Shown here piece after piece: positions 8,601-23,644 of a stretch of DNA of 51,105 bases. The number at the start of each line of letters is the position of its first letter. Position 1 is the first letter of the stretch. Under the pieces are notes generated by a model. It ran no database searches, had not been told where the DNA came from, and worked only from the letters and a program-made list of their open reading frames with translations. Source of the stretch: an uncultured bacterium. Its GTDB lineage: Bacteria > Verrucomicrobiota > Kiritimatiellia > PWTM01. The position numbers and the translations under genes are program-made. Where the stretch lies: positions 1-51,105 of the forward strand of contig CAKZPT010000010.1 of NCBI GenBank assembly GCA_937139365.1, in the 5' to 3' direction.

Positions 8601-8800
8601 CAAAGCAGGTTCCACACCGGATGCGTTAGCGGTGGAACGGCGTCAAATCCGCCGGCGTGCTTCAGGATCAGGGCAGATGGCGCTCCGGGGAGGGGGCCTT
8701 GGGCGAGGGTGGCCGCGTACAGGATGGCGGCAGCCGCCGCCACGCACCCGCAAGCCAAGGCGGTCATTCGCCGATTTGTATCCTTCCACCATCCGTTCAT
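5696..8800 (-). CDS. DUF2723-type membrane protein with C-terminal TPR repeats
   Basis: A 1,034-residue protein. The first half is polytopic and begins with the DUF2723 pattern: a first membrane helix near residues 12-30, GGFDAVPPLTHPVWNLLCRL, then a chain of hydrophobic helices to about residue 420. The second half (about 580-1010) is a string of tetratricopeptide repeats, for example EDLGRPEEAIRAYRAAIA. DUF2723 proteins resemble GT-C glycosyltransferases and are proposed protein O-mannosyltransferase-like enzymes that use lipid-linked sugar in the inner membrane; the TPR half would recruit partners. The ATG at 8800 was kept, but the ATG at 8767 is equally plausible and has a GGAAGGAT stretch 12-15 nt upstream. 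No lesion is seen over 3.1 kb. Substrate unknown. Confidence 0.75.
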   Translation of the reverse strand: MNGWWKDTNRRMTALACGCVAAAAAILYAATLAQGPLPGAPSALILKHAGGFDAVPPLTHPVWNLLCRLAAVVPAGPLAIRSHALCGVLGVLGVWMAARVAADWAGPLAGSERGTTSNGFGELDGRFRAASSIIAGLSLALSGPFWLASTRTSTGTLAAVLGLAAARRMDAYHRKGGLARLTVAAVLLGLGAAESPALLICIPLAALLTLAAMARHDHLPPLDGRRSPRDHRSWHPAIQAAAAFAAAFLIPPAVQAVVFARSRAAVWAGRQTPWSVAAASFRAIYNNVRDSIPPIGWIVIVLVALVPAALLIWAWRSPAPRRRRRLAAVSVLLLAVSAAIHLHTPLAPWPVVPFPSPPIMTYVWVALWTALAANVLMRWAADRWGPSGFADRLPACARLVAAAPVAAVLGGFFLSFPHVDGRAARPFRWLAEGILREAEGAEWMISHGLWDDVVAVTWGKTRTKWQALRWDLATDPVYLASVADRFRDRPYLAVLAEAGLPALVPVWLRESSNEWPRIVAVDLPVVFAASGVPHAPGLFAWRGGTDRPPPPPREIDRWHQEAVAMRRIVERTPPPLSFYGRFAMRHASRVMNEVGVRLEDLGRPEEAIRAYRAAIAADGSNLVAQINLSRVVRSLGRIEAERIDRSLLEYLREIPEPLDIVNLTHIYGRLRDPASATVRAQRLAAAGRFAEAFGDLTAAMTMGGTNDVLMAAAARAMAAQGRAQEALGMLEEGLRQFPNSEAIAQSLAFIAAVERREAATPPPPGSSRLDSLLLNALAAVSRADWAAADTAVRSALAMSPTNDEALALSALLALRQGRPDRVRAVENELRGRGASHPLASLSLAGVLLSERRTAEARNRLDEVVSRHPEFVPARRLLMRLEHEAGRLAAARTHAHVLLRQRPEDRGALLVLADLFIRNERWADAEAIFRRLAGTRSDPVVLSGLAWVLYCQGRAAEAVPHARQAVEAAPRVPEFRYTLASALQATGDWDGALAEITEAMKLAPNNVEFRRRAEQIRDRRSDPLHAKQASTPRGG

Positions 8801-8852
8801 GGGCGCGTGACCCGCCGGGGCCCAAGGGGCGGCTGGCTTCCCAAAATAACAG

Positions 8853-8878
8853 AAACCCGGGCTTTGCAGCCCGGGTTT
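8853..8878 (-). terminator. Rho-independent terminator after the PEP-CTERM gene
   Basis: A perfect inverted repeat with 11-bp arms (AAACCCGGGCT / AGCCCGGGTTT) and a 4-nt loop. On the minus strand it is followed by a T-rich run (TTTCTGTTATTTT). It lies 30 bp downstream of the stop at 8908 and closes the long minus-strand transcription unit before the DUF2723 gene. Confidence 0.8.
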
Positions 8879-8907
8879 CCGCGGTTTAACGGATTTCTAA
8901 CGTTGGA

Positions 8908-9474
8908 TCACCGTTGCGCGCGCGCGCGGGCACGGCGGATCAGAAAAACCCCTGCGCCAAGCAGCAGAAGCCCGGCCGATCCCGGCTCAGGGATCACCTG
9001 CCAGTCGCTCTGCTGCACTTTCCCGAAGTTGTAGTCGATCGGGAAGGGCGGGAGCGTCTGATTGACGTCCCAATCCAGCACCGTGGGCCCGACGGTGGCG
9101 AACATTGTCGCCAGGTTCGGATCGTTGTGGTTGTAGATGCGGGTCCTTAGCGGGCGCGCATCCGCCGCGGGGGGGAGTACCGCCAGCTGGAACGGCACCC
9201 CCACATATGGGTCCTCGTAGCGCCAGAATCCGTAGTCGGGATGATGGTGCGCGGTGTAGTACACCGTTTCGGTGACTGCGTCGATGATCTGTGCGGCCCA
9301 ATTTGACGTCAACGGAATCGGGTTGCCGTCGGGATCGAAGCAGTCCGGTCCAGTGTAGTTCCCGTGGTTATAGTAGTCCGATCCCCAGAGGACTTGAATG
9401 CCCCATTGAGCCTGCGCCGTGGCCGCCGTCGCCAGGGCGACCGCCGCCAACACATGTTTCATCATCGAGTTCAT
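8908..9474 (-). CDS. PEP-CTERM sorting-signal exported protein
   Basis: 188 residues with a signal peptide (MKHVLAAVALATAATAQAQ) and a textbook PEP-CTERM tail: VIPEPGSAGLLLLGAGVFL, then the basic end IRRARARAQR. Such tails direct proteins to the exosortase/archaeosortase pathway, which anchors or releases them at the outer surface, usually in biofilm or extracellular-polysaccharide producers. The middle part (WGIQVLWGSDYYNHGNY and after) matches nothing I know. The start is the ATG at 9474 because AAAAGGAG sits at normal spacing upstream, rather than an upstream in-frame start at 9540. It is the last gene of the minus-strand run that begins with the Ton genes. No exosortase gene is in the window. 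Confidence 0.8.
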   Translation of the reverse strand: MNSMMKHVLAAVALATAATAQAQWGIQVLWGSDYYNHGNYTGPDCFDPDGNPIPLTSNWAAQIIDAVTETVYYTAHHHPDYGFWRYEDPYVGVPFQLAVLPPAADARPLRTRIYNHNDPNLATMFATVGPTVLDWDVNQTLPPFPIDYNFGKVQQSDWQVIPEPGSAGLLLLGAGVFLIRRARARAQR

Positions 9475-9550
9475 CGGTTTTCTCCTTTTAGTGTATTTCC
9501 CTTTTTTAGTGTTCCTTATTGGTTGATTATCCGTTCGCAAACATGCTCCG

Positions 9551-10297
9551 TCAGGGCAACGTCACCCTCGGGATCCGGCTGACGTAGCTGGTGCCCCTTG
9601 CCTCGTACCAGAAGCCCGAGCCGATCGGGATCGGCGAGGACAGCACCACGTTGTCGCTCGCGCGCACCCACCTCTGGCCCGCGCTCCGGAGGTAATAGGG
9701 GACGAAGCCGGATTCAGAGAGCAAATGGATGCGGTCCGCTGTGGATGCTGTTCCAGCCTTGGCCCCGTCGGCGACCCAGGTCATGGAGGTAGAATTGAGG
9801 TGCCACGCTCCGAAAAACGGGTTGGCCATCAGCGACAGACCCGGGGGGACGGTCCGCAGAGCCGCCTCTCCGGAGAGGACTTCGCCGGCGAGGTAGATCG
9901 TGTGCGGCGCCGTGCTCGTGGACGGCGACTGCAGGATGATGGCATCGCCGACCGAGAGCTGGTAGTCGCCGAATTCCCCCGTGAGGCGGCGGTAACGGCC
10001 ATCCAAACGCTGATACATGCCGACGTACGATTGGGAGGCCGGCGACCAGATCAGGATCTGTGTGGCAAACTGGGGGTTATTGGCGCGCACCAGCTGGTTG
10101 GAACCCAGCAGCCGCACCACGCCGATCATGCCCTGACCGCCGATCTGCTGCACGTTGACGCCCGCGATCACGAATCCGCCCGCCGGCGGGATCGTGACGG
10201 GCACAAACCCGACCGAATTGCCGCCCGGAGCCATCTGCGCCTGCGCCACAGCCGCAAGGCCGGCCGCCGCAATCCCCGTCATGAGCCTGGTCTTCAT
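9551..10297 (-). CDS. Exported protein of unknown function
   Basis: 248 residues beginning with a clear signal peptide (MKTRLMTGIAAAGLAAVAQAQ). The mature part is beta-rich and contains NSVGFVPVTIPPAGGFVIAG, LLGSNQLV, GDAIILQSPST and MANPFFGAW, and ends IGSGFWYEARG...RVTLP. The layout resembles exported proteins common in Verrucomicrobia-like genomes that start with NSVGFV and comment on a single beta domain, but no function is established. The ATG at 10297 was preferred over the longer frame to 10474 because it starts the signal peptide and has AGGAG 12 nt upstream. It sits 76 bp before the PEP-CTERM gene on the same strand, so co-expression is likely. Confidence 0.65.
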   Translation of the reverse strand: MKTRLMTGIAAAGLAAVAQAQMAPGGNSVGFVPVTIPPAGGFVIAGVNVQQIGGQGMIGVVRLLGSNQLVRANNPQFATQILIWSPASQSYVGMYQRLDGRYRRLTGEFGDYQLSVGDAIILQSPSTSTAPHTIYLAGEVLSGEAALRTVPPGLSLMANPFFGAWHLNSTSMTWVADGAKAGTASTADRIHLLSESGFVPYYLRSAGQRWVRASDNVVLSSPIPIGSGFWYEARGTSYVSRIPRVTLP

Positions 10298-10463
10298 CCC
10301 ACTAGTCCACTCCTGTCTAGACGTCCGTTTCTTCCGCCATCCCCCGCCCGGCCGCCCAACGGGTTGTACCGGGCGCCAAATGCGCGGGAAGAGTCGCTGC
10401 GGCCCGTTAGGATTTGATGTGGACAAAATCAGAAGGTTCGTTGATTTGCGTGAGGATTTCGGA

Positions 10464-11354
10464 TCAGAACGCATACCCGAAGGTGAACATCACCGCGTGG
10501 ACGTTCTCGATGAACAGCGCGTCGGAGTTGTCCGGGAACACGACCAGCCCGCTGTCGGTCGAGTCGAAGGAGTAGATCCACTCGCGGTGGTAGCTCAGCG
10601 ACGCCCGCAAGCCGTTGCGCAGGTCCCAGTTGACGCCGAACTCCGCCCGCGCGCCGTAGGCCAGCGAGTAGTCGTCGTCGTACCGCTCGCGGATTTGCCC
10701 ATCCCATTTGTCGTCGCTGCCGCGCCGCGCGAAGCCGCTGGCCTCGCCGATCATCCCGCGGATCAGGGCATAGACGCCGAGGTTGGGCCCCTTGAACGGC
10801 TGCCAGCGCCCGAAGTATCCGGCCTGCAACATGTGGTAGTTGGTATTCTCGCTGAAGCGCAGGTCGTCGTGCCGCTCCACCAGGGTCATTCGCTTGGTGA
10901 CGCCGATGTAACGGTAGCCGATGTCCCATCCCCACTGGGACGACTCGGTCGCGCCGGCCCGTTGGCTCCACAGCAACTCGAGGTCGTTGCGGATGTTCTC
11001 GATCTCATGGTAACCGCCGGGCTCGCGGCGTTCGTAATCGAACTCGGCGTTGATGAACCGCACCGAGGCCGCGCCGTCGCCTTTGGCCACGGCCAGGCGC
11101 AGGCCCCAGCCGTTTCCGCTGGCATCGCCGCGGCGCCAGCTTTCCGCGCGGTCCTCCTCGAAATCCGCCCGCGTCTGCAACGCGTCGTGCTGGTACAGCA
11201 CGCTGTAGAAGATCCCGTCGGCGACCACGCGCCACGGCTCGGATTTGGTCTCCTCGAGTTCCAGGCCGGCCGCGGGCTCGTTCTGGGCCTGCGCTGCGAC
11301 GCCGGCCGCGACCGCCGCCGCCCACCACCACCGCATCATCGTTCGCATGTTCAT
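10464..11354 (-). CDS. Putative outer-membrane beta-barrel protein
   Basis: 296 residues with a short signal peptide (WWAAAVAAGVAAQAQ) and then repeated amphipathic strands rich in Tyr, Trp and Arg (GWDIGYRYIGVTKRMTL, YHMLQAGYFGRWQPF, LSYHREWIYSF). It ends HAVMFTFGYAF: a terminal Phe preceded by alternating hydrophobics, the usual signal for outer-membrane barrel assembly. The size suits a barrel of about 12-16 strands. It follows the TPR gene of the Ton cluster by 58 bp on the same strand, which suggests a role beside the receptor, perhaps as a second channel. No family name can be given. Confidence 0.65.
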   Translation of the reverse strand: MNMRTMMRWWWAAAVAAGVAAQAQNEPAAGLELEETKSEPWRVVADGIFYSVLYQHDALQTRADFEEDRAESWRRGDASGNGWGLRLAVAKGDGAASVRFINAEFDYERREPGGYHEIENIRNDLELLWSQRAGATESSQWGWDIGYRYIGVTKRMTLVERHDDLRFSENTNYHMLQAGYFGRWQPFKGPNLGVYALIRGMIGEASGFARRGSDDKWDGQIRERYDDDYSLAYGARAEFGVNWDLRNGLRASLSYHREWIYSFDSTDSGLVVFPDNSDALFIENVHAVMFTFGYAF

Positions 11355-11412
11355 CCCTTTCCCGCGGCGTCCCCGCCGCGATGTTTCGTGTCTCCCGTCC
11401 CGGCCCGCCGGG

Positions 11413-12792
11413 CTAACGCCTCGCGCGGGCCATTCGTTCCACCTGTTCCAGGTACCTCGCCACGTCGTCGCGCGGCCGTAGCTCCTGCGCGCGCTTTAGC
11501 AGCGGCACGGCCTCCGCATAGCGGGCCGCGCGCACCAGGGCCTGGGCATGCCGAAGGCGGGCCTCGGCCTCGCTGGACTCGATCGCGGCCGCGCGCTCGA
11601 ACAGCAGGACCGCCTCTTCGAGCCGCCCCGCACCGGCGTGGTGCTGCGCCAGCAAAATCAGCGCCTCGCCGTCGAGGGGGTCGAGGGCCGCGATCTCCTG
11701 CAGCAGCGCGACCTGCTCCTCCGCCGGCGCCCCTCGCGCCGCCGCCGCCCGCGCCTCGAGCTTCAGCAGCCGCTTGCGCGCGGCCGCGTCGAGCCGCTCG
11801 CCGCCCACCGCCCGGATGCGCCCGGCCAGCTCCCGGGCCAGATCGTGCGCGCCGCGGGCGGCCAGCACCTCTGCGTTGCGCAAGGCGCGTTCGGGCGCCT
11901 CGGCGCGTTTTTCCAGCGCGCGCCGGTAGGCGTCGGCCGCCAGGTCGAGGTAGCCGTCGTTCACGTGGATGTCGCCCAGGGTCTGCAACGCCTCGGCCGT
12001 CGCCTGGCCGACGAGGTCGAGCTGCTCGTAGACCTCGACGGCCTTCGCGGTCTGTTTCATGCCGAGGTACGCATTGGCTTGCAGCACCCGGTACTCCGGC
12101 CGATCGGGCTCCATCCGGATCATCTCATCGCACAGCGCCGCCGCCTCCGCGTATCGCCCCTGTTTGAAGAGGCAGCGCGCCAGGCCGAGCCGCCAGTCCA
12201 TCACCTGCGGTTGGAGCATCACGGCCAGGCGGTAGGCCGTCTCGGCCGAGGCGTGCCGTTCGGTCTGCATGTGCGCGAAACCGAGCAGGCCGTAGGTCGT
12301 GCCGTCCGTCGCGCCCAGCTCGATCGCGCGGCCGAGCGCCGCCGCCGCGCGATCGAACCGCCCGGCGCGCACGAGCGCCACCCCCAGTTGCTTCCACGCG
12401 CGCAGGAAGGAGGAAAACTTCGCCGTGGCGCGTTCATACCATGCCGCCGCGGCCTCGGGCTCGTTGGCCAGGAAAAAGGTGTGGCCGAGCATGAAGTCGA
12501 ACGCCGCGCACCCGTTCGTGGCCGTGGCCGCCTGCTCGAGCAGGCGCCGCCCGACGGGCAGGGTCTTCGGCGCGCCGAGCAACGGCAAGATCTTCTCCAT
12601 CTGCGCCCTCTCGACCTCGGTCATGCGCGGCTCGACGTCCGTCCGCACCGCCGCGTCGTCCAGCAAGCGCCGGCGGAACGCCGGGTCGCGCCAGACCCGC
12701 AGCTCGTCCGCCGGCGACGGCGGCCCGTCGGCGGCGATCGCCGCGGTCGCCGCAGCGCAGGCCGCCGCGATCCATGGAAGCCTCCGGTTCAT
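11413..12792 (-). CDS. TPR-repeat protein of the Ton cluster
   Basis: 459 residues: a signal peptide (MNRRLPWIAAACAAATAAIAA), a charged segment, then many 34-residue TPR-type helical pairs from about residue 105 to the end (AAAAWYERATAKFSSFLRA, YAEAAALCDEMIRMEPDRP, LEEAVLLFERAAAIESSEA). The start is the ATG at 12792, which overlaps the tonB stop as ATGA. Periplasmic TPR proteins close DUF3450-ExbB-ExbB-ExbD-TonB operons in gammaproteobacteria such as Vibrio (the TonB3-type cluster), where they support the function of that Ton complex. By position this protein should do the same, probably as a periplasmic scaffold. Confidence 0.8.
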   Translation of the reverse strand: MNRRLPWIAAACAAATAAIAADGPPSPADELRVWRDPAFRRRLLDDAAVRTDVEPRMTEVERAQMEKILPLLGAPKTLPVGRRLLEQAATATNGCAAFDFMLGHTFFLANEPEAAAAWYERATAKFSSFLRAWKQLGVALVRAGRFDRAAAALGRAIELGATDGTTYGLLGFAHMQTERHASAETAYRLAVMLQPQVMDWRLGLARCLFKQGRYAEAAALCDEMIRMEPDRPEYRVLQANAYLGMKQTAKAVEVYEQLDLVGQATAEALQTLGDIHVNDGYLDLAADAYRRALEKRAEAPERALRNAEVLAARGAHDLARELAGRIRAVGGERLDAAARKRLLKLEARAAAARGAPAEEQVALLQEIAALDPLDGEALILLAQHHAGAGRLEEAVLLFERAAAIESSEAEARLRHAQALVRAARYAEAVPLLKRAQELRPRDDVARYLEQVERMARARR

Positions 12793-13475
12793 TTCATTGC
12801 GAAGACGATCGGAACCTTCATTCGAAACGGCACCGGCTGCCCGTTGCGCCGGCCGGGTTCGAAGCGCCACTTCCTCACCGCCTGAAGGGCGGGGGGCTCG
12901 AACGCCGGGTGGCTGGATTGCTGGACGATCGGGTTCTGCACCGCGCCGGACGGGTCCACGACGAACAGCACATGGACCGAGCCGGCCACGCGCTTGCGTT
13001 TCAGCTCGACGGGGTACTCCGGCGCCACCTGGTGCATCACCCGCGGCGCCTGGTCGAGGTCGGACAGCGAGAAAATCGCATCCGCCTCCTCGCGCACGCG
13101 GTTTTCGACCGAAGAAAGCATGCGTGCGGCGATCTCGCCTCCGAGTCCGTCGCCGAAGCTCGGGTTGAGCGCCAGCTCGAGGTCGGAGAGGTCCATCGGA
13201 GGCGTGTCGGGCGCGTCGAGCGACGGAGGAGGCGGCTCGTCGTCCGGCGGTTTCTGCTCCGGCTCGGGTGGCGGCGGCGCCGGCGGCGGCAGGTTGACGC
13301 TGGAGGCCGGACGCAGTTCGAGGTCGTCCGCCGGCGGCCGGGCCACCTGCTGGATCAGCGGCAGCACCAGGAACACAAGGGCCGTAAGAACAACGGCGAC
13401 GCCGAGCCCGGCCAGCCCCCGCGCGGCGCGGCCCGCGGCCGATCGCGTTCGCTCCCATGCCCGCCGCGCCTTCAC
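12789..13475 (-). CDS. tonB: TonB energy-transducing protein
   Basis: 228 residues: one N-terminal membrane anchor (GLAGLGVAVVLTALVFLVLP), a proline-rich periplasmic spacer (residues about 55-95, LPPPAPPPPEPEQKPPDDEP), and a C-terminal TonB domain from about 150. The domain has the VAPEYPVELKRKRVAGSVHV entry strand and the VRKWRFEPGRRNGQPV core. TonB passes the proton-motive energy of ExbB/ExbD to outer-membrane receptors. The GTG at 13475 is the start because it overlaps the exbD stop (GTGA) and lies directly before the anchor; longer frames upstream are shadows of exbD. Its stop overlaps the TPR gene start by 4 bp. Confidence 0.9.
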   Translation of the reverse strand: MKARRAWERTRSAAGRAARGLAGLGVAVVLTALVFLVLPLIQQVARPPADDLELRPASSVNLPPPAPPPPEPEQKPPDDEPPPPSLDAPDTPPMDLSDLELALNPSFGDGLGGEIAARMLSSVENRVREEADAIFSLSDLDQAPRVMHQVAPEYPVELKRKRVAGSVHVLFVVDPSGAVQNPIVQQSSHPAFEPPALQAVRKWRFEPGRRNGQPVPFRMKVPIVFAMK

Positions 13476-13885
13476 GCGCCCTCCTTCCGCGTGGCGAGGT
13501 TGACCTTCTTCGCCCCGCCCAGCTTGGCCTCGTCGATCACGCGCACCAGCAGCCCGGAGGGCACCGCCTGATCGACCTGGATGATGACGGGCAGGTCCTC
13601 TTTCTCGAGCATCCGTCGGACGAGGGGACGAACGCCGCCCACACCGATGTCGCGTCCGCCGTAGACGACCTCCCCCTTCGCGGTCACGGCGACCAGAACG
13701 CTGTTTTTCTCCAGGTTGACCGAGGCGGCCGCGACCGGTTTGTCCACCTCGACGCCCGTTTCCTCGACGAAGGTCGTCGTGACGATGAAGAAGAGCAGCA
13801 GAATGAAGATGCAGTCGATGAGGGGGGAAATGTCGATGCCCGCCTCGGACGCATCGTCGGCGCCGCTGGATTGGAACCTCCTCAT
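13472..13885 (-). CDS. exbD: ExbD/TolR-type biopolymer transport protein
   Basis: 137 residues with one membrane helix close to the N-terminus (IDISPLIDCIFILLLFFIVT). It carries the conserved Asp (residue 24) that takes part in proton passage in ExbD/TolR proteins, followed by the periplasmic domain (VPSGLLVRVIDEAKLGGAKK). ExbD works with the ExbB pore to power TonB. The ATG at 13885 overlaps the stop of the preceding ExbB-type gene (ATGA), and the stop overlaps tonB. Length and layout match the family. Confidence 0.9.
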   Translation of the reverse strand: MRRFQSSGADDASEAGIDISPLIDCIFILLLFFIVTTTFVEETGVEVDKPVAAASVNLEKNSVLVAVTAKGEVVYGGRDIGVGGVRPLVRRMLEKEDLPVIIQVDQAVPSGLLVRVIDEAKLGGAKKVNLATRKEGA

Positions 13886-14562
13886 GGTCCCGTTCCTCCC
13901 GCCATCGCCGGCAGGGTGTCGGAGGCGGCGGGCGTGGGCGCGGACACGGCGCGACCGCCCCGGTGAACCTCCTGCAGGCAAAGCGTCTCGAGGTGGGCCA
14001 GCAACCGGGCAAAGGCCAGCTGGCGCCGCGTGAGGACGATCTGGGTCATCAGGCCCATCAGGGCCATGACCAGCCCCGTCTCCGTCGTCACGAGCGCTTC
14101 GGAGATGCCCGAGGCGATGCGCTCCATGGTCTTCTCGCCGCCGCCGCCGACGGCCAGGGCCCGGAAGGTCGTCAGCATGCCCGTGACTGTCCCCAGCAGG
14201 CCGAGCAGCGGGGCGGCCTTCACAGCGACCTGTAGCACACGGAGATCGCGCTCGAATGGCGCCATCTGCTCGTTGCGCACGCCCTCGAAGAAGCGCGCCA
14301 CTGCCGCCGGATCGGGATGGCGCATCGCGCCGGCGATAATGCGTTCGATCGGCCCGCGGGGCCGCTCGGGGTTTCGCCGCCAGGCCGCCCACGCGCGGTC
14401 GGCCGAGCGGCCTGCGCCGCGGGCCATCAACCGCAGGTAGGTCATCGCGGCGACGCCGAACAGGATCACGCCGTTGGCGGCGAGCGCGATCATGCCCCAC
14501 CCGCCCTGCCCCCAGATCTCCAGCGCCTCGGCCGGCAGACGGCGAAGGACATCCGGCATCAT
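13882..14562 (-). CDS. exbB: ExbB/TolQ-type proton channel protein (second copy, short form)
   Basis: 226 residues in the MotA/TolQ/ExbB family: a first helix near residues 20-43 (GMIALAANGVILFGVAAM), a cytoplasmic stretch, then the paired conserved helices VKAAPLLGLLGTVTGMLTTF and ISEALVTTETGLVMALMGL. The motif between the helices is the family signature. It is the second of two ExbB-type genes in tandem; the first has a long N-terminal extension. The ATG at 14562 overlaps the preceding stop by 4 bp. With ExbD it should form the inner-membrane motor for TonB. Confidence 0.9.
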   Translation of the reverse strand: MMPDVLRRLPAEALEIWGQGGWGMIALAANGVILFGVAAMTYLRLMARGAGRSADRAWAAWRRNPERPRGPIERIIAGAMRHPDPAAVARFFEGVRNEQMAPFERDLRVLQVAVKAAPLLGLLGTVTGMLTTFRALAVGGGGEKTMERIASGISEALVTTETGLVMALMGLMTQIVLTRRQLAFARLLAHLETLCLQEVHRGGRAVSAPTPAASDTLPAMAGGTGP

Positions 14563-16106
14563 GCGGCCGCCTCCGCGGCCGGCGCCTTCTCCAGCTCCGC
14601 GAGGAACGAGATCGCGATCCGTTCCATCCGGTCGGAGAGCGCCTTGGCCTTGCGGGACAGGAACGAGTGGAACAACAGCGACGGGATGGCGACGTACAGC
14701 CCGAACTCCGTGGTGATCAGGGCCTCGGAAATGCCGGCGGAGAGCATCTTGATGTCGCCCGAGCCGAAGACGGTCAGCAGCTTGAAGGTGGAGATGATGC
14801 CGGTGACGGTGCCGAGCAGTCCGAGCAGCGGCGCAGTCGCGGCGGCGACGGCGATGATCGGCAGCAGCCGGTTGAAGCGGGTGCGCGCGCCCAGCAGCCG
14901 TTCGAACATCACCTCCTCGACCAGCTCGCGGGACTGGTCGAGATGTTCGACGCCGGCGCGCACCATCTCCGAGGCAGGGCCGGTCCAGCGCCGGACGGCC
15001 TCCAGGGCCCCAGCCTGATCGCGGCGCGCGATCAACTCGAGCAGCCGCCGCAACTGGGCCTCGGGTGGCATGCGCACCAGCGACAGGGCCGCCCATTTGC
15101 CGAGCGAGATCGTCAGCGACACGGCCGCCACCCCGAGGATCGGCCAGATCACCGCTCCGCCCTTTCGAATGTGTTCCCAAAGGGTCTCCCGGGTTTGCTC
15201 GACCTTGCGGGCATTGCCGAGGCTGCCATCGAACGGCATTCGGCCGTAGCCATGGACGACGAACTCCCGGGTGGCCTCCGTCATGGCGGCATCGGTGAAG
15301 GGGTCCACCGAGGGTTCGAGCGAGCCGAGCTTTTGTTCGGCGATGCCGGCCAGCGAACCCTCGTCGGCGACAAAATACGCCACCGGCCCGAAGAAGGCGT
15401 ACATCCCCGACATCACGCGCCCGTCGGGACCCGCCGCCTGCCCAGTGAAACGGTCTCCCCCGACCAGATCCTCCAACCGCCGCAGGCTGGCTTCGATCGC
15501 CCGGATCTGACAGGCGAAGACCTCGGCGACGGGCAACTGCGAGTTCTCCGTCGCGAGGCGGGCAGCCGACAGGACCCGCTCGTGACGCGCCGCCTCGGCG
15601 ATGTGAAGGCGGTTTTCGAGGTTTCGGATGTACTCGTTGAACAGGTTGGAGAGGTAGGCCGATTCCTGTTCGCGGGCCTTGATGTCGTTGCGGAGGTTGT
15701 TCAGGTCCAGCGCCCGCCCGTCGAACTGCCGTTTCAGCGCGTCGTAGCGCGCGCGCGTCTCGACGAGGCGGTTTTCGAGGTCCGTTAGCGACGCCGCCAG
15801 GGGCACGCGCTCGGCGGCGATGTCCGACCGGACGCGGTCCAGCTCCGCCACGGCCTCGTCGAGGTTGCGCCGCGCCAAGGCCACCCACTCCGGTGGGGCC
15901 TCCGCCGACGGGGTGTCGTCGCGGCCAGCCGGCCGGTTGGTAACGGCGGCCGCGGAAGGGGCGGCCTGGCGGGAGGTGAGGGACGAAGCGGCGGGACGCA
16001 GAACCGGAGGGCGCAGCGGCGCGAACTGCGCCTCGGCCCGGACGGCCGCCGCCACGGCGACCCCGCCGACCGCGAACCGGAGGACGATGGACCGTACCGC
16101 GTTCAC
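14559..16106 (-). CDS. ExbB/TolQ-type protein with periplasmic coiled-coil extension
   Basis: 515 residues. After a signal-like segment (FAVGGVAVAAAVRAEAQ) comes a long alpha-helical region (about 75-210) with heptad character (LARRNLDEAVAELDRVRSDI, RYDALKRQFDGRALDLNNLR), then a globular part with FFGPVAYFVADEG. The MotA/TolQ/ExbB channel domain lies in the last 200 residues (TAPLLGLLGTVTGIISTFKL and SEALITTEFGLYVAI). This extended form, paired with DUF3450, is the known layout of the Vibrio/Shewanella-type Ton system, where the extension probably contacts DUF3450 in the periplasm. It overlaps both neighbours by 4 bp. Confidence 0.88.
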   Translation of the reverse strand: MNAVRSIVLRFAVGGVAVAAAVRAEAQFAPLRPPVLRPAASSLTSRQAAPSAAAVTNRPAGRDDTPSAEAPPEWVALARRNLDEAVAELDRVRSDIAAERVPLAASLTDLENRLVETRARYDALKRQFDGRALDLNNLRNDIKAREQESAYLSNLFNEYIRNLENRLHIAEAARHERVLSAARLATENSQLPVAEVFACQIRAIEASLRRLEDLVGGDRFTGQAAGPDGRVMSGMYAFFGPVAYFVADEGSLAGIAEQKLGSLEPSVDPFTDAAMTEATREFVVHGYGRMPFDGSLGNARKVEQTRETLWEHIRKGGAVIWPILGVAAVSLTISLGKWAALSLVRMPPEAQLRRLLELIARRDQAGALEAVRRWTGPASEMVRAGVEHLDQSRELVEEVMFERLLGARTRFNRLLPIIAVAAATAPLLGLLGTVTGIISTFKLLTVFGSGDIKMLSAGISEALITTEFGLYVAIPSLLFHSFLSRKAKALSDRMERIAISFLAELEKAPAAEAAA

Positions 16107-16918
16107 TGGATCGTCACCGGCAACGTGACGTACACCGCCGGCTTCTCGTTCCGGTGAACGGCGATCAGGTCGGCCACCTGGGGGACGAGCGAATCGTCGC
16201 GTTCCCAGATCCAGCCAGCCTTGCCCGGCCGTCCCACGCCGGCGACGCCGCCGGCCGCGTTCACGTAGTACGCATGGGCCAGCCCGATGTAGAGCACGGT
16301 CACTTCCGTCCGGCTGCCATCGGGCATGTCCCGAACCTCGCTGACGATGTGCAGATCGCGGGCGAACTTGTTGACTTCGTTCAGGACGCCGACCACGTTC
16401 TGGAAACGCTCGGACAGGGTGGCGCGGGAGGCACCGTCCTTCGGGATCCGCTGGCTCAGGGGGCGAAGGTGATCCCGTAGGGGGGCAGGCCCATGGTCGA
16501 GCAGCGCCAGTACCCGCGCCTCGAGGTTCGTGACGGCGTCGTGCAGGCCGGCGGTGCCCGCGGCCAGGACGGCCTGCTGCGCCCGCAGTTCCTCGAGCTT
16601 GCGGTCGACCTCGGCCAGATCGTTCGAGGTTTGCGCGATCTGTTGCTCCTGGGCCTCGATCTCACGCCGCAGCAGCGACACCCGACCCTCGAGGATTTCC
16701 TTTTGCGCGCGCCATTCGTGGCGTTCGCGGGAGATAAGCCGGCGGGTTTCGATCCATTTCTCCAGCGCCTGCCGTCCCGCCGCCTCGGCGTCCTCCGCGC
16801 CCCGCGAGTGGGAGGTGGCGGAGGTTTGCGCGCGCACGCCGAGGGAGAGGACGGCGACCGCGATGACGGCGGCGGACCGACGGCGGCGGCTCGGCTTTGT
16901 CGTACAACGCGCGATCAT
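16103..16918 (-). CDS. DUF3450 family periplasmic coiled-coil protein
   Basis: 271 residues with a signal peptide (AAVIAVAVLSLGVRAQ), a long coiled coil at about 45-130 (LISRERHEWRAQKEILEG, IEAQEQQIAQTSNDLAEVDR), then the conserved DUF3450 C-terminal part with RFQNVVGVLNEVNKFARDL, TVLYIGLAHAYYVNAAGG and GWIWERDD. DUF3450 proteins occur almost only next to the extended ExbB and are required partners of that Ton complex. It starts 3 bp after the receptor stop and overlaps the ExbB gene by 4 bp, so the whole machine is translationally linked to its receptor. Confidence 0.88.
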   Translation of the reverse strand: MIARCTTKPSRRRRSAAVIAVAVLSLGVRAQTSATSHSRGAEDAEAAGRQALEKWIETRRLISRERHEWRAQKEILEGRVSLLRREIEAQEQQIAQTSNDLAEVDRKLEELRAQQAVLAAGTAGLHDAVTNLEARVLALLDHGPAPLRDHLRPLSQRIPKDGASRATLSERFQNVVGVLNEVNKFARDLHIVSEVRDMPDGSRTEVTVLYIGLAHAYYVNAAGGVAGVGRPGKAGWIWERDDSLVPQVADLIAVHRNEKPAVYVTLPVTIQ

Positions 16919-16921
16919 GGC

Positions 16922-19900
16922 TCACCACTCCATGGAAAGGCCGAGCGAATAGCGCACCCCCTCGCGGTATTTTCGCCGGGGAATCTCCTCGCCGTCCGGC
17001 TTCCGATACACCTCGGTCACGGGAGGATCGAGGACGTTGTGCGCACGGAACGTGAGCTTCGCGTGGCGGCCGATCTTCTGCGACAGGCTCAGCCCGACGT
17101 TGGCGAACTTCTTGACGAAGATGTCCGGCGTGGCGCCGCGCTCGCCGACCGCGGCGCCGGCCTTCAGCAGGTCGCCGCGGATGTTGTAGAACCAGCCGAA
17201 GGCCGTGCCCCAGCGCTCGATGTCGTAGGTGAGGTTGAAGTTGAACAGGAAGGCCGGCTGGCCCTCCATTTCGCGCCGATCCCGCCGCAGCCCGTAGCCA
17301 TCTAGCCCCTCGGCGATGTTCTCGGGCACGGTGACGCGCGCGTCGATCTTCGTGTAGTTCAACCCGACCGACAGCGGCTTGAAGGGGTCGGGCATGAAGT
17401 CCAGCCGGGCGCGGCCCTCGACCTCGACGCCCTGGACGTAGCCCTCCGGGTAGTTGACCGCCAGCAGGTAGTCATCGTTGAGGTAGGTAAAGGCCTCGCG
17501 CTCGATGGGATCGGTGAGGCGTTTTTCGAAGATGCTGATGGCCAGCATCTCGTCCGCGGTGGGAAACCACTCCCATCGCAGGTCGCGGTTCACGATCCGC
17601 GACAGCTTCAGCTCGTTGTTGCCGACGGAGGTCTCGCCTTCGATGAAGTCGTGGGTGATGACCGGCGCGATCTCGAGGAAGGTCGGCCGCGCGATCGTCT
17701 GGGCCCACGTCAGGCGGAGGTTCATGCGCGGGGTGATCTCCCACAGCAGGCCCATCGAGCGCAGCCACGAGGAGTCCTCGATCTTGGTGCGGGCTTTCTC
17801 CCGCGGCACGCCGGTGATGTACCAGGTGTACTGCACCTTGCCCTGCGCATTTGTGACGTAGTTGCGCACGGGCACCAGGAAAGCGCGTTCGGGTTGCGTC
17901 AGCTCGGTGTCGGAAAACGGCTCGATCCTCATCTGGGTCACCTCGAGCCTCGCGCCGCCGATCAGCTTGATCTGCTGCGCGATGGGCAGCTCGAGCATCC
18001 AGAAGCCCGACCGGAACACTTGGTCGCCGTCGTACCCGACGTCAAAGGGGCGCGGCTGGATGTACCACAACATGCTGTCGGTGTAGCGGCCCAGGCCGAT
18101 GCGGTCGGGATGGCTGAAGACGTCCGTCCAAAGCGCGTTCGGCGTGTTCGTCACGAAGGTGCGTTTGGCGGCGTCCTGACGCATATCCTCGAAGGCGGCC
18201 TGGTACTGCCGGCCGGTGCTGCTGGCGAACCAGGCCGCGCGAGCGGCCTCGAAGGCACGCCGGCCGGCGGAGCCCGGCGGAAAATCGGAGCGGACGGGGC
18301 CGGTGTAGGTGGGAGGGCGCTGATCCGCAAAGACGTAGTAGTAGGCGTCCTGCCGGTAGTTGCGGCGGGTCCAGTCGCGGACGAAGCCCATCCGCAGCCA
18401 AATCTCGCCCGTCGTCCATGCGTCCTCGCGCCGGCCGAAGCCCATGAACGACGCGTCGTAGTCGGGCACGTTCCATCGGAGGGGGAAACCGGCCTGAACG
18501 CCGTAGATCGAGTTCTGCTCCAGGGTGTTGCGCCAGATGCGCGTGGAGACGTCCACGTCGGCCCCCGAAGAGCCATCGGGGCGGGCCTGGTATTCGTATT
18601 GGCCGCCGGGCCGGGCTTGGATCACGTTGCGGAAAAAGCGGGCGTCCGGCTCCTCCTGCTCGACCCGGTTGCGGGCAACATGCCAGCTCAGGTCCCACGC
18701 CCGTTCGTCCGTGGCGCCGAACCGCTCGAAACGGTGTTCGCCGCTCATTTGCAGCACGTCGACCGATCGTTCGACGTACTGGATCCCCTGCCGTTGAGCC
18801 CACAGCCCCTCGCCTAACTGCCCTGTCGCGATGCTGGCGCGGTCCGACACCGCGCGGTTGCGCAGGCCCACCAGGCGGATGTCGTGGACCGACTCCTTCG
18901 CCAGGCCGATCGAGACCAATTCGCTCCACTTTAGCTCCTCGCCCCCGACGTCGCGCTGTACCTCGTCACGAACCCCGGCGGTGGGCATGTCCAGCGGCGG
19001 GGCGACGTATTGGATCTCCTCCATCGGCTGGAGCGTGAATTTCTTGGAATAGGCCAGCGCTCCGACGGCGCCTATATCCCATTCGCCGCCCAGGCCGATC
19101 CGTCCCCCACCGCTGATGTCGTAGCTGTGGTTGGCGTCGGGCACCCGAGTCCTCTTCGTGCCCATCGCGGGGGCGAGCGAGCGGGTGAGGCGATCGTATT
19201 CGGAATATCTCTCGGAATCGCTCCGACGGTGGCCGGGGATGGGCGGTTCGTGCAGCGACGGCAGGCTGGCGTCCGTCAGGCCCTTGGCCTCCATGTCGGC
19301 CAGCCCCTCGGGCATGTCGCGGGCGCCGCGGTGGCGGCCCCAGCGGTTGATGCCCGCGCCCTCGTAGGTAACAAACCCCTCCTTGCCGGTGTAGCGGCGG
19401 TTGACCTCGCGGGACACACCGGCCTTGAGGAAGGGCTCCGACGGCAGGCTCAGCGTGCGGATGTTGATGCCCCCGCCGGTGTAATCGCCGGGCAGGTCCG
19501 GGGTGAACGTCTTGCTGACGGTGATGCTGTCGATGGTGCCGGCGGGAAACACGTCGAGGTGGACGGCGCGCCGTTTCGGATCGGCGCTGGGCACGCGGAT
19601 TCCGTTGACGGCCGCCCCGACGTAGCGGTCGCTCAGCCCGCGCACGCTCGCGTACTTGCCCTCGACGACCGTCGCGCCGACGACCAACCGCAGCGCGCCG
19701 GCGACGTCGCTGGCGCCGGCCCGGCTGATCATCTCGCGGCTGACGGAGTCCTGCAGCGTCAAACTGGCCTGTCGCAGCTCGAGCAGGCCGGCCTCGGTCG
19801 CGGTCTCCTGCAGCTCCAGCTCGCGGACCACGAACTCCTCCATCTCCGTCACCTCGGCGCGCAGCCGGATGGTGACGTCGGCCATGCTCCCCGGCACGAC

Positions 19901-20191
19901 GGCGATGCCGGTCTGGACGTGGCGGGCGAAACCGGGTTTGGTCACGGTGAGCGTGTACGCGCCGGGCGCCAGGTCCGGGATGGAGAAGTGACCGTCGTTG
20001 GCGGTGACCTGCTCCCGGGCGGCCTCGAGCAGCCGGACGACCGCCTGCGGCACCGGCGTGAGGTAGTCCGCGTCGAGGACGACGCCGCGCAGCCCCCCTC
20101 TGGCGCCCTGGGCGCGCGCCGACGGCGGGGCCACGGCACACCGTGCGATCAACAGCGCCATCAGCGCCCCCCACTGCCGCCTAGCCGCCAT
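16922..20191 (-). CDS. TonB-dependent outer-membrane receptor with CarboxypepD-like N-domain
   Basis: 1,089 residues: signal peptide (to about 28), a carboxypeptidase-regulatory-like beta domain (32-110, GVVLDADYLTPVPQAVVRLL ... GAYTLTVTKPGF), a TonB-box-like EMEEFVV near 116-122, a plug domain (SREMISRAGASDVAGALRLV; VRGLSDRYVGAAVNGIRVP), and a long beta-barrel ending YSLGLSMEW with an aromatic terminus. Receptors of this type take up large substrates such as oligosaccharides, metal chelates or peptides with TonB energy. Substrate cannot be told from the sequence. It overlaps the upstream lipoprotein gene by 11 bp and precedes DUF3450 by 3 bp, so it is dedicated to this Ton complex. No frame damage in 3.3 kb. 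Confidence 0.9.
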   Translation of the reverse strand: MAARRQWGALMALLIARCAVAPPSARAQGARGGLRGVVLDADYLTPVPQAVVRLLEAAREQVTANDGHFSIPDLAPGAYTLTVTKPGFARHVQTGIAVVPGSMADVTIRLRAEVTEMEEFVVRELELQETATEAGLLELRQASLTLQDSVSREMISRAGASDVAGALRLVVGATVVEGKYASVRGLSDRYVGAAVNGIRVPSADPKRRAVHLDVFPAGTIDSITVSKTFTPDLPGDYTGGGINIRTLSLPSEPFLKAGVSREVNRRYTGKEGFVTYEGAGINRWGRHRGARDMPEGLADMEAKGLTDASLPSLHEPPIPGHRRSDSERYSEYDRLTRSLAPAMGTKRTRVPDANHSYDISGGGRIGLGGEWDIGAVGALAYSKKFTLQPMEEIQYVAPPLDMPTAGVRDEVQRDVGGEELKWSELVSIGLAKESVHDIRLVGLRNRAVSDRASIATGQLGEGLWAQRQGIQYVERSVDVLQMSGEHRFERFGATDERAWDLSWHVARNRVEQEEPDARFFRNVIQARPGGQYEYQARPDGSSGADVDVSTRIWRNTLEQNSIYGVQAGFPLRWNVPDYDASFMGFGRREDAWTTGEIWLRMGFVRDWTRRNYRQDAYYYVFADQRPPTYTGPVRSDFPPGSAGRRAFEAARAAWFASSTGRQYQAAFEDMRQDAAKRTFVTNTPNALWTDVFSHPDRIGLGRYTDSMLWYIQPRPFDVGYDGDQVFRSGFWMLELPIAQQIKLIGGARLEVTQMRIEPFSDTELTQPERAFLVPVRNYVTNAQGKVQYTWYITGVPREKARTKIEDSSWLRSMGLLWEITPRMNLRLTWAQTIARPTFLEIAPVITHDFIEGETSVGNNELKLSRIVNRDLRWEWFPTADEMLAISIFEKRLTDPIEREAFTYLNDDYLLAVNYPEGYVQGVEVEGRARLDFMPDPFKPLSVGLNYTKIDARVTVPENIAEGLDGYGLRRDRREMEGQPAFLFNFNLTYDIERWGTAFGWFYNIRGDLLKAGAAVGERGATPDIFVKKFANVGLSLSQKIGRHAKLTFRAHNVLDPPVTEVYRKPDGEEIPRRKYREGVRYSLGLSMEW

Positions 20192-21395
20192 GGAACGTGG
20201 CCCGGAGCCGACTCAGGCCGTCCATCAGCGCATTGCTCTGGTGCCCGCTTCGCGCCGCGGCCACCGCGATGTCCACCGCCGCCAGCGCGCGGGGCCGGAG
20301 ATTCACGAGGGGTAAAGCCGCCGCCACGGCCCGTCCGAACAGCGCATCGGCGGTCGCGGCGTCGCCCGCCAGCGCGGCGGCGGCGGCGAACTCGGCCCAG
20401 ATGCCGGGTCGCTCGATGTTCTGCAGCTCGTTCTCCACCGGCGCCTCGACATCGGCCAGCAGTTCTTTCACCCATTCGATCCGGCCGAGCCGCCCCCAGC
20501 TTTGGGCCACGCGGGCCAGCAGCGGCGCGCGCAAATGAAGGGGCAGCGGCAGGCGGCGCACCTCCTCCGTCAGAGCCGTCATCCGCGACATCCTCTCCGC
20601 GTCGGCCCATTCCGCGGCCGCGGCGTCGAGGACATCCAGGCGGGCTTCGTACGCCTTCCAACCGGGAACGTCGCCCGCCGCCGCCCAGGCGAGGTCCAGC
20701 CAGCGCTTGGGACAACCGGCTGGGGCGTCGGCCAGCCCCGCCAGCCAGAGATGTCCGCGGACCTGCCAATACCTGTCCTCGTACGCGGCCTTGGGGCCCA
20801 AGTCGGCCAGCACCCGTTCCGCCTCCGCCGTGCGCCCGGCGCGGCCGAGCGCCAGCGCCAGGGCGGCGCGGGAGCGCCCTCGTTCGTCGGCCTCCAGCAG
20901 GTAACGGTGATGCACCTCCACCAGCCCCGCCACGTTGGTCATCAGGGCGGCCGTCCTGGCCAGGTGCATTTGCAGGCGGTCTCGCGGCCAGTCGGTCACT
21001 TCGATTGCCCGGGTGGAGGCTTCCTCGAACAGAGCTCTGCCCTCGGGCACTTCGCCCCGCTCCAGATGCAACGACGCGGCGTCGGCCAGCACGGCCGCGC
21101 CCCGCCAATGAGGGATCTGCCGCGCCAGCGCCGCCGCGACGTCCGGCCGCCCCCGCTCCAGCCACACGCGCGCGACACGCTCCATCGCGCGCGCGCGATC
21201 CTTGTCGTCGTTAGTGATCGCCGCCGCGAAGTCCCAGGCAAACTCCAACCGCTTGTCCGCCGACAGCGCCGGACGGACGGGCGGCACCGAGCCGGCGCAG
21301 CCAGCGGCGAGGACTCCCGCCGCCAACGCCAGGAACGCGCAAACGTGGCGCAGCGAGGTACTAGAACCGTCCCACCAAATGGTCATGTACGGCAT
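20181..21395 (-). CDS. Helical-repeat lipoprotein of the Ton cluster
   Basis: 404 residues with a lipoprotein signal peptide (AFLALAAGVLAAGC, lipobox LAAGC, lipidated Cys at 33). The mature part is an all-helical repeat solenoid of TPR-like pairs (AMERVARVWLERGRPDVAAA, AGRTAEAERVLADLG, WGRLGRIEWVKELLADVEAP). Such lipoproteins often serve as periplasmic scaffolds. The stop (TAG) lies inside the receptor gene start, so it is the first gene of the Ton operon. No clear ribosome site precedes the ATG at 21395 or the in-frame ATG at 21386; the exact start is uncertain. It may position the receptor or the DUF3450/ExbB complex. Confidence 0.7.
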   Translation of the reverse strand: MPYMTIWWDGSSTSLRHVCAFLALAAGVLAAGCAGSVPPVRPALSADKRLEFAWDFAAAITNDDKDRARAMERVARVWLERGRPDVAAALARQIPHWRGAAVLADAASLHLERGEVPEGRALFEEASTRAIEVTDWPRDRLQMHLARTAALMTNVAGLVEVHHRYLLEADERGRSRAALALALGRAGRTAEAERVLADLGPKAAYEDRYWQVRGHLWLAGLADAPAGCPKRWLDLAWAAAGDVPGWKAYEARLDVLDAAAAEWADAERMSRMTALTEEVRRLPLPLHLRAPLLARVAQSWGRLGRIEWVKELLADVEAPVENELQNIERPGIWAEFAAAAALAGDAATADALFGRAVAAALPLVNLRPRALAAVDIAVAAARSGHQSNALMDGLSRLRATFHGG

Positions 21396-21475
21396 GAGAG
21401 CCCAAGACTGCCGGAGCCACGTAAGGAAATCGTTCAGAATCCTTTTCGATTTGGTTGACGGGAGGGAAAAAAGAA

Positions 21476-21501
21476 GACGGGCCCCCGAAAGGGGGCCCGT
21501 C
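21476..21501 (-). terminator. Rho-independent terminator after the beta-helix gene
   Basis: An 11-bp perfect stem (GACGGGCCCCC / GGGGGCCCGTC) with a GAAA loop, followed on the minus strand by TTCTTTTTTCCC. It lies 21 bp downstream of the beta-helix gene stop and separates that transcript from the Ton operon, which must then have its own promoter between 21396 and 21475. Confidence 0.85.
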
Positions 21502-21521
21502 CATAAGGACCGCGTGCCGCG

Positions 21522-23309
21522 TTACGGACCGAGTTCGCCGGACAGGACCCGGTACTGGCGCGCCTCGGTGATCGGACGCTGATCGGTGTAGAGGTAGTCG
21601 GCGCCCGTGCCGACGATGTTGGTCGTCAGGTTGACCCACCCCATGGTGGCCTCGTTGGTGGTGTACTGGACCGCGTAGGTCGCGCCGGCCATTGTCGGGA
21701 ACCGGATGGTCGCGGCCACGAAGGCGTCGGAGATGGTCGGATCCACGTACTCTCCGTAGTTGTCGCTTTCCATGAGGCCGAGCTTGTTCACGAGGGTCCA
21801 TTCGGCCCAGTTCTTCGTGCCGAACGCGCCGACGTGCCGCACCGGCGTGAAGAAGCCGTCCTCCGGGGGTCGGCGCCCGCCGGTCAGGAGGGGGCTGCCC
21901 GAGGGCAGCGTGGGATCGAGGAGCTCGACTGGATAGTATTGCCGGCCACCGTGGGTGATGGGCGTGCTGGAGCGTGTCAGCTCAACGACCGGGGCGCTGC
22001 TGCCGCCGGCAAGGGTATTGCTCAGCGAGGGATCCGAGAAGAGAGGATAGCCGTAGTGAGGCAGGTCCTTGTCGCCGCTGGCGGCGCCGTAGACGTTCGC
22101 TACGCCGGAACTGGGGGCCAGGTGGATCGCCACGTTCGTGCCCATGTTCCAGAACGTGCAGTTGGCGATCTCGAGCATCTTCCCGCCGCCGTCGTGGGTG
22201 TAGAACGCATTTTTGACATAGTTCGACTGCGTCAGGTCGGCCGAGTCGTAAATCGCGTCACCCAGCGCGCCCTCGATCAGCGCCGGCGCGCCGCCGAAGT
22301 CCATGAACAGGGAGTTGTAATACCGCCCGCCGGACCCGTCCCGGAAGTGCAGAACGGCGTTGGCCATGTTGCCTGAGTCCTTGCCCAGACCCACGAACGT
22401 GGCGTTGTAGACCGTCGGACAGGCCGACGGCTGCGCGCGGTCCAACCCCGTGGCGCCATCCATCTCAGCGCCCTTGTCGGAGCGGTCGGTCGTGCTCGCG
22501 AAGCCCTGGACTCGCAGGACGAACTGGAGTTTGCCGCGGTAGCCCTCGTCCCAGTCGATCCCGTCGTCGCCGTCGGCCCAGCCGACGAGGTATTTCGCGT
22601 TGCAGGTGGAGCCGAAGAACTCGAACGCGTCGTCCGCGTTCTGGTAGACCTCGATGTGGCGGATGTCGGTGCCCCGCCCGACCGCGCCGCAGGTCAGCCC
22701 GTTGATCTCGTTGTCCGTGCCCAGCACGAACGCACCGTAGCGGATCGACACGTAGCGGAGCTCGCCGCTGTCATCGTCGTCGTCACCGCCGCCGTACCTG
22801 CTCAGCTCTCCGTAGGGTGTCAGACCTTCGATCTGCATGGTCAGGGTCGAATTCGGCGAGGTGACCGTTCCGACGACAGTCGCAATGTAGGTTCGCCCGA
22901 GCAGAATCAATCCGCCCCAGGTCTTCGAGATCAGGTTGTTCGGCGTGTTCCACGGTGCCGTGCCAGGCCCGGGGGTCGGGCCGACGTAGTGGTTGTCGTT
23001 CGAGCCGGTCATCACGATCGGCGCCTGCGGCGTACCCAGCATCCGGATCTTCGATCCCCGCGAGACGACCAACGTACCGGGCCCTGGAGTGGCTGCGGTC
23101 TTTGGAAGACCGCGGATCACCGTGCCGGCGTGGACCGTCAGGGTCGCCCCATCCTTCACGAAGACGGGCCGGTCAATGATGTACACGATGTTCGACGTCC
23201 ACGTCGTATCCACGGAGATGTCCGAGCTGATATAGTTGGTTCCGGTCTGCGCATGGGCGCACAGCGACGCGCCCGCCACGCAGAACATCGCCATGGTCGT
23301 TTTCTTCAT
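21522..23309 (-). CDS. Secreted surface protein, parallel beta-helix type
   Basis: 595 residues: signal peptide (MKKTTMAMFCVAGASLCAHA), then ISSDISVDTTWTSNIVYIID and VFVKDGATLTVHAGTVIRG, the entry motif of a family of secreted right-handed beta-helix proteins often encoded beside TonB-dependent receptors in Bacteroidetes, Gemmatimonadetes and Verrucomicrobia. Further repeats follow (WGGLILLG, DDDDDSGELRYVSIRYGA, YQNADDAFEFFGS, NCTFWNMGTN), with acidic clusters that could bind Ca2+. The end (YTTNEATMGWVNLT ... ARQYRVLSG) is a small beta domain. The ATG at 23309 has AGGAG upstream and begins the signal peptide. It is transcribed just ahead of the Ton operon, so it is a likely surface partner of the receptor. 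Function unproven. Confidence 0.7.
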   Translation of the reverse strand: MKKTTMAMFCVAGASLCAHAQTGTNYISSDISVDTTWTSNIVYIIDRPVFVKDGATLTVHAGTVIRGLPKTAATPGPGTLVVSRGSKIRMLGTPQAPIVMTGSNDNHYVGPTPGPGTAPWNTPNNLISKTWGGLILLGRTYIATVVGTVTSPNSTLTMQIEGLTPYGELSRYGGGDDDDDSGELRYVSIRYGAFVLGTDNEINGLTCGAVGRGTDIRHIEVYQNADDAFEFFGSTCNAKYLVGWADGDDGIDWDEGYRGKLQFVLRVQGFASTTDRSDKGAEMDGATGLDRAQPSACPTVYNATFVGLGKDSGNMANAVLHFRDGSGGRYYNSLFMDFGGAPALIEGALGDAIYDSADLTQSNYVKNAFYTHDGGGKMLEIANCTFWNMGTNVAIHLAPSSGVANVYGAASGDKDLPHYGYPLFSDPSLSNTLAGGSSAPVVELTRSSTPITHGGRQYYPVELLDPTLPSGSPLLTGGRRPPEDGFFTPVRHVGAFGTKNWAEWTLVNKLGLMESDNYGEYVDPTISDAFVAATIRFPTMAGATYAVQYTTNEATMGWVNLTTNIVGTGADYLYTDQRPITEARQYRVLSGELGP

Positions 23310-23644
23310 CGTTCCATGTCTCCTATGCTCCATTCTGTTTGCTCCCGACGTTGCCCGTCCGGCGGCGGGCCATCCACCACCGGTCCGGGGCCGCCACGCA
23401 CCCAAGCGTCCGCCCCGACGCGGGCCCACATGCGCCCGTCGGACGCGCACAGAATGTGGGAAGGGTGTTTGGAAGCGATGTGGCCTTTTGTATTTTTCGT
23501 TGAATCTTGATTTAGGCTTTTTCAGCGAAGTGCGAGGAAACGGTTTGCCCGGCCGGGATGGGATGCGGCTCGTTTCGCCGCCTTCAAACCGTCTTCAAAC
23601 CCGCATTTGACAGGTCCCTAGCCGGCCGCGCGCAGGCTGGCTGG
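23310..23644. other. Divergent intergenic region with AT-rich stretch
   Basis: 335 bases between the beta-helix gene (minus) and the YkgJ-type gene (plus). Bases about 23470-23530 are notably AT-rich for this contig (TTTTGTATTTTTCGTTGAAT) and probably hold the minus-strand promoter, though I cannot fix -35/-10 boxes. A short direct repeat TTCAAACC-GTC-TTCAAACC occurs near 23583-23601. No RNA gene seen. Confidence 0.4.

Follow-up and report, generated by a model that had tools for sequence, protein, structure and literature searches.

A nine-gene cassette uniting an ElpS-like surface protein, its receptor and a TonB motor: a probable phosphate-starvation uptake system in an uncultured bacterium of the Kiritimatiellia

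What does a bacterium take up through a TonB-dependent receptor that is encoded together with a motor of its own, and which of the adjoining genes belong to that machine? This question is raised by contig CAKZPT010000010.1 (assembly GCA_937139365.1) of an uncultured bacterium of the class Kiritimatiellia (Verrucomicrobiota), of which we analysed the whole stretch of 51,105 nucleotides (hereafter, the window). Twelve genes follow one another on its minus strand from position 23309 down to 8908, and open reading frame (ORF) lists and translations, together with Pfam and NCBIfam, confirmed the strand and the order that a sequence-only reading of this DNA had proposed for them. Based on the comparison with other bacteria, we consider it probable, if by no means assured, that nine of these genes form a phosphate-starvation TonB-dependent uptake system with a private energy motor. 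For the host organism itself, it is this comparative evidence that points to a phosphate role.

The cassette, with all its genes on the minus strand, begins with a gene for a beta-helix surface protein (21522–23309) similar to ElpS of Caulobacter and to FI and FII of Flavobacterium johnsoniae. This protein has a Sec signal peptide, and since no good lipobox was seen at its N-terminus (MKKTTMAMFCVAGASLCAHAQ), we term it ElpS-like and not ElpS proper. It is followed by a lipoprotein (20181–21395; lipobox LAAGC) modeled as an alpha-solenoid resembling tetratricopeptide repeat (TPR) or pentatricopeptide repeat (PPR) proteins, and by a TonB-dependent receptor of the TonB-Xanth-Caul-like type (16922–20191; Pfam, NCBIfam), in which Pfam recognised a plug, a barrel and an N-terminal carboxypeptidase-regulatory domain. 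The six remaining genes code for a TtpB-like DUF3450 protein (16103–16918; Pfam E=1e-23), a TtpC-like extended ExbB with a large N-terminal part (14559–16106; Pfam, NCBIfam and tree), an ExbB (13882–14562), an ExbD (13472–13885), a TonB with a GTG start, an N-terminal membrane helix, a proline-rich linker and a TonB_C domain (12789–13475), and an exported, TtpD-like TPR protein (11413–12792), the last gene of the conserved cassette. Pfam also matched MotA_ExbB in both ExbB proteins, ExbD, TonB_C and TPR. Searches of Pfam and NCBIfam gave no family match for the beta-helix protein and the lipoprotein, a PDB sequence search gave none for the beta-helix protein or the receptor, and an Rfam search gave no match. 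Successive genes overlap by 4 nt at all five junctions from DUF3450 through TPR, as had been noticed earlier, while the receptor and DUF3450 genes are 3 nt apart and the lipoprotein and receptor genes overlap by 11 nt.

We read 25 loci of relatives in the host class, each with up to 20 kb of surroundings; relatives of the receptor occur in 6 of the 9 genomes of the family and 37 of the 288 of the class. The order beta-helix, lipoprotein, receptor, DUF3450, extended ExbB, ExbB, ExbD, TonB, TPR was kept in these loci wherever the contig reaches, save that in a few of them the second ExbB is displaced or has diverged, or the lipoprotein has diverged, and that in one (L039) the core is reshuffled. 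Because the same nine-gene order recurs in Planctomycetota and in independent families, it is more than a chance arrangement. In some Planctomycetota (L092 and L096) the genes are circularly rearranged, with the receptor and the core first and the beta-helix and lipoprotein genes last.

The pair formed by the beta-helix protein and the receptor is distributed far more widely. The loci recovered in a scan with the beta-helix alignment belong to eleven named phyla, among them Bacteroidota, Planctomycetota, Verrucomicrobiota and Pseudomonadota. In 60 of the 79 named loci, the receptor lay within 2 kb of the beta-helix gene, and most of the others ended at a contig edge or had the core between the two genes; in the window, it is the lipoprotein gene that lies between them. 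Besides, the receptor adjoined the beta-helix gene at 18/18 loci of one gammaproteobacterial order and in 19/20 plasmid records. The sole plasmid beta-helix gene lacking an adjoining receptor (L138, Marinobacter) has an IS1595 transposase a few kb away. In that gammaproteobacterial order (L233, L235, L245 and L248, among other loci) the beta-helix protein is a tandem two-domain protein of about 950 amino acids.

Homologues in the Flavobacteriales and the alphaproteobacteria show this pair in an arrangement that has already been published. In alphaproteobacteria (e.g., Sphingomonas and Indioceanicola), the window beta-helix query retrieved a beta-helix gene, a receptor gene and then type II secretion genes, which is the order of elpS (cc0170), cc0171 and the gsp genes in Caulobacter (PMC2996285). 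ElpS appears under phosphate starvation, and its overproduction led to more extracellular phosphatase activity (PMC2996285). In F. johnsoniae, FI and FII adjoin TonB-dependent transporters (TBDTs), FII lying in a phoBR cluster and being annotated as a pectin-lyase fold. Phosphate depletion strongly induces both proteins, FI accounted for 18.7% of the exoproteome, and an identity of 31–36% to the Caulobacter protein was reported (PMC8115612). Judged by arrangement, distribution and the statements of these papers, the window pair thus appears to match ElpS-CC0171 and FI/FII-TBDT (PMC2996285, PMC8115612). It differs from the Caulobacter locus, which has a type II secretion system in place of a linked Ton motor and in which ElpS is a lipoprotein, and from the F. 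johnsoniae loci PUSIII and PUSIV, which belong to Bacteroidota, code for surface lipoproteins and were not reported to include a linked TonB motor or a TPR lipoprotein. SusCD and PusCD likewise combine a surface binding protein with a TonB-dependent receptor, whereas the cassette has a beta-helix protein and not SusD, for which Pfam and NCBIfam gave no match among the neighbouring proteins.

The surroundings of the pair point in the same direction. Neighbouring ORFs were clustered all-against-all without preselecting families, and apart from antisense ORFs and genes that close relatives have in common, the prominent recurring neighbours were PhoB, PhoR, PstS, PstA/C, PhoU, Ppk1 and a PiT-like transporter; the cluster representatives were backed by NCBIfam, except PiT, which was named from its sequence. 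Phosphate genes stood near 31 of the 79 named loci and 8 of 26 class loci (39/105) versus 0/36 control stretches (Fisher p about 2e-6), the counted families having been picked because they recur near the pair and the controls (612 kb) coming from a subset of the named genomes, none of them from the class. Six class loci carry, beside the cassette, a response regulator that NCBIfam matches best to PhoB, though with a score under the curated cut-off. In two class loci the flanking genes form a pst operon, the PstS of which exceeds the cut-off. On the plasmid pBGP9 of Alteromonas macleodii, the genes stand in one row, phoB-phoR-pstS-(2OG)-beta-helix-TBDT-DUF3450-ExbB-ExbB-ExbD-TonB-TPR, and two chromosomal loci (L245 and L248) are close parallels with phoB, phoR, pstS, beta-helix, receptor and core. 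The plasmid thus shares the union of pair and core with the window, and differs in having no TPR lipoprotein, a larger beta-helix protein and a core of a different lineage.

Several points weigh against a phosphate role, in addition to the choice of counted families and the origin of the controls. None of the types of phosphate gene looked for occurs in the window, which is the whole contig, and the pstS of the host genome lies on another contig. Across 20 loci, the DNA preceding the beta-helix gene showed no canonical Pho box above the shuffled expectation. The tie to ElpS and FI/FII is one of identical arrangement and of statements in the two papers, and ElpS is a lipoprotein, which the window beta-helix protein is not. 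Finally, cc0171 is constitutively expressed in Caulobacter, where its deletion left ElpS production going (PMC2996285).

The fold of the beta-helix protein leads to the question of whether carbohydrate is taken up instead. Its model (predicted local distance difference test, pLDDT, 72.5; predicted template modeling score, pTM, 0.77) is almost all beta, and the matches in Foldseek were right-handed beta-helix proteins, none below E=0.001; because these matches are weak, we take only the fold class from them. They include pectate lyases, tailspikes and epimerases, FI and FII were suggested to bind plant glycans (PMC8115612), and the window also contains alpha-L-rhamnosidase and heparinase genes, all of which would suit a protein that binds or cuts polysaccharide for a receptor importing oligosaccharides. 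On the other hand, the cassette does not include the rhamnosidase and heparinase genes, Pfam and NCBIfam assigned the beta-helix protein to no enzyme family, and the neighbour clusters examined contained no recognised carbohydrate enzyme while phosphate genes were recognised, so that we regard carbohydrate uptake as unlikely. Among 28 beta-helix sequences, fifteen acidic positions are conserved in 90% or more, and several lie 22 residues apart (226/248, 227/249 and 230/252), the spacing that a ladder along consecutive rungs of the helix would give; this acidic face possibly binds calcium.

Next to the pair stands the motor, whose presence in gammaproteobacteria had been stated in the sequence-only reading and which indeed has the membership and order of TtpB-TtpC-ExbB-ExbD-TonB-TtpD of Vibrio, with DUF3450 first, followed by extended ExbB, ExbB, ExbD, TonB and TPR. 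The same reading took the joining of a receptor to this core as unfamiliar, which did not hold: the Vibrio TonB3 operon begins with a receptor gene (PMC6957404), as does the motor part of the window, and in Alteromonas the beta-helix, receptor and core genes form one row. The window thus shares six gene types in the same order with Vibrio TonB2 and TonB3 and a front receptor with TonB3 (PMC6957404), but it belongs to an unrelated organism and adds the beta-helix protein and the TPR lipoprotein. Its receptor is of the ElpS-linked family, and the likeness to the TonB3 receptor is one of gene position. This relationship could also suggest an iron or heme system of the TonB2 kind, as the Vibrio core energises siderophore receptors: the gene set is that of TonB2/TonB3 (PMC6957404), and one Pseudoalteromonas locus has siderophore genes nearby. 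We find this improbable, considering that iron genes do not dominate the neighbour clusters, that TonB3, the version with the front receptor, is not iron-regulated (PMC6957404), and that phosphate starvation induces the beta-helix partner in two phyla (PMC2996285, PMC8115612).

The core is not bound to the pair. Of the 288 class genomes, 69 have DUF3450, among them every one of the 37 with the receptor, and 18 loci around other DUF3450 matches were nearly all six-gene cores with no adjoining beta-helix gene or receptor of the cassette family. Since such stand-alone cores exist, even alongside the cassette in the same genome (G064, G113, G125 and G145), the core is a portable module; in a sample of a gammaproteobacterial order, that of a Colwellia genome, it was directly attached at only 4 of 18 beta-helix loci. 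In the tree of the extended ExbB, which has moderate support at some nodes and includes some long branches, the cassette cores of the class and of Planctomycetota form one clade (32 rows; SH-aLRT 95) that holds no stand-alone cores, and the cassette cores found in Verrucomicrobiae and Gammaproteobacteria are placed with stand-alone cores from their respective lineages. As the cassette cores separate by lineage, pair and core were probably joined more than once. Detected in the host genome were only three plug domains, alongside three TonB_C proteins and eight ExbD matches, and a motor serving the cassette receptor as a dedicated unit is therefore plausible. As a doubtful extension, we speculate that several lineages independently equipped an ElpS-type receptor with a private motor of the TtpB/TtpD kind for a substrate in need of sustained pulling (e.g., a phosphorylated polymer, polyphosphate or DNA), that TtpB and TtpD are the adaptation to it, and that receptor-bearing TonB3-type operons are generally phosphate systems.

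The beta-helix gene is also set apart by a hairpin. Directly 3' of it, on the minus strand (21475–21502), lies a strong intrinsic-terminator-like hairpin of 12 pairs followed by TCTTTTTT. Such a hairpin was found within 60 nt past the stop of this gene in 10 of 22 class relatives as well as in the window, against a shuffled expectation of 0.1, and at none of 175 other cassette junctions. It is likely a partial terminator between the beta-helix gene and the remainder, and its restriction to this one cassette gene suggests that the surface protein is highly expressed. The arrangement agrees with overproduction of a protein at the surface, for which FI in Flavobacterium is a parallel.

Together, these observations allow us to propose a theoretical scheme for phosphate-starvation uptake. 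The terminator may keep the surface protein in excess over the machine, and the beta-helix protein, exported in quantity, would sit on the cell surface and capture or present a substrate that contains phosphorus, possibly via a calcium-binding acidic face. Considering the near-universal pairing, it would then pass the substrate to the co-encoded receptor, which the private TtpB-TtpC-ExbB-ExbD-TonB-TtpD complex would open, as has been shown for Vibrio TonB2, and through which, driven by this motor, the captured phosphorus compound would be imported. The TPR lipoprotein, whose model (pLDDT 85.7) matched TPR/PPR folds in Foldseek, probably scaffolds the receptor and the motor on the periplasmic side of the outer membrane, and Pst or PiT transporters encoded elsewhere would carry phosphate into the cytoplasm. 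The near inseparability of the beta-helix protein and the receptor could also mean that the receptor and the motor display or release the surface protein instead of importing, all the more as the alphaproteobacterial pair adjoins an operon for type II secretion, which was found to influence the release of ElpS (PMC2996285). This is highly improbable, as the plug and the barrel of the receptor are normal, TonB motors are known as drivers of import, and ElpS production was not halted by the loss of cc0171 (PMC2996285).

The pair and the core are each known, and a front receptor is known from Vibrio TonB3; their union, which we found in bacteria of the PVC (Planctomycetota-Verrucomicrobiota-Chlamydiota) group, fibrobacters and marine gammaproteobacteria, seems undescribed. 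The open-licence papers searched contained no description of the pair-core union, the added TPR lipoprotein or the terminator, and nothing direct on a phosphate role of Vibrio TonB3 or on the phosphate-linked Alteromonas core. The cassette links two poorly understood matters, namely ElpS-type proteins and their receptors in phosphate starvation and the extra TtpB, TtpC and TtpD subunits, and it offers each side, motor genes included, a concrete and testable partner or role, with Luteolibacter pohnpeiensis and marine Alteromonas among the named strains that carry it. A private motor for one receptor would be an unusual investment in a genome with three detected plug domains.

Beyond the TPR gene, the spacing becomes looser (58, 166 and 76 nt) and three further minus-strand genes follow: a putative outer-membrane beta-barrel protein ending in ...TFGYAF (10464–11354), an exported protein (9551–10297) and a PEP-CTERM protein (8908–9474), the tail of which was matched by NCBIfam, while Pfam and NCBIfam gave no family match for the first two. 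All twelve genes had been proposed as one dedicated and complete machine, and this would agree with their single strand, with the order kept in two congeners (L008 and L009), and with the lack of a strong minus-strand terminator from the lipoprotein gene to the PEP-CTERM gene, directly 3' of which a strong terminator-like hairpin does occur (8849–8882, minus strand). The exported and PEP-CTERM genes are nevertheless found, besides the window, only in these two congeners and are absent from all other loci reaching far enough, including L012 of the same genus, which has the barrel; the barrel gene occurs in eight loci counting the window (the family and two other loci) and is absent from most families. 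The machine thus consists of nine genes with a local tail: the receptor, the beta-helix protein and the lipoprotein belong with the core, as in the 25 class loci and Planctomycetota, the barrel is a lineage-limited accessory, and the exported and PEP-CTERM proteins are probably not part of it. That all three proteins are working parts of a twelve-gene machine is very unlikely. A large membrane TPR protein (5696–8800) adjoining the PEP-CTERM gene is kept in L008 (17768–19885) and L009 (18263–19900), and since it is kept in both congeners, the exported, PEP-CTERM and membrane TPR genes may constitute a block of their own at the level of the genus.

Upstream of the beta-helix gene, at 23583–23600, lies a perfect direct repeat with 11-bp spacing (TTCAAAC-N4-TTCAAAC), which recurs with one mismatch at 2512–2529 in the congener L008; none was seen near the pstS of the genome. 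It could be a candidate site of an OmpR/PhoB-type regulator. Further upstream, the region 23618–26002 holds fragments in shifting frames, of which the tested piece had no Pfam match, and is possibly a decayed gene. At the other end of the window (1628–4314), the alpha-L-rhamnosidase domains are divided between two overlapping minus-strand frames, which suggests a frameshift or a pseudogene.

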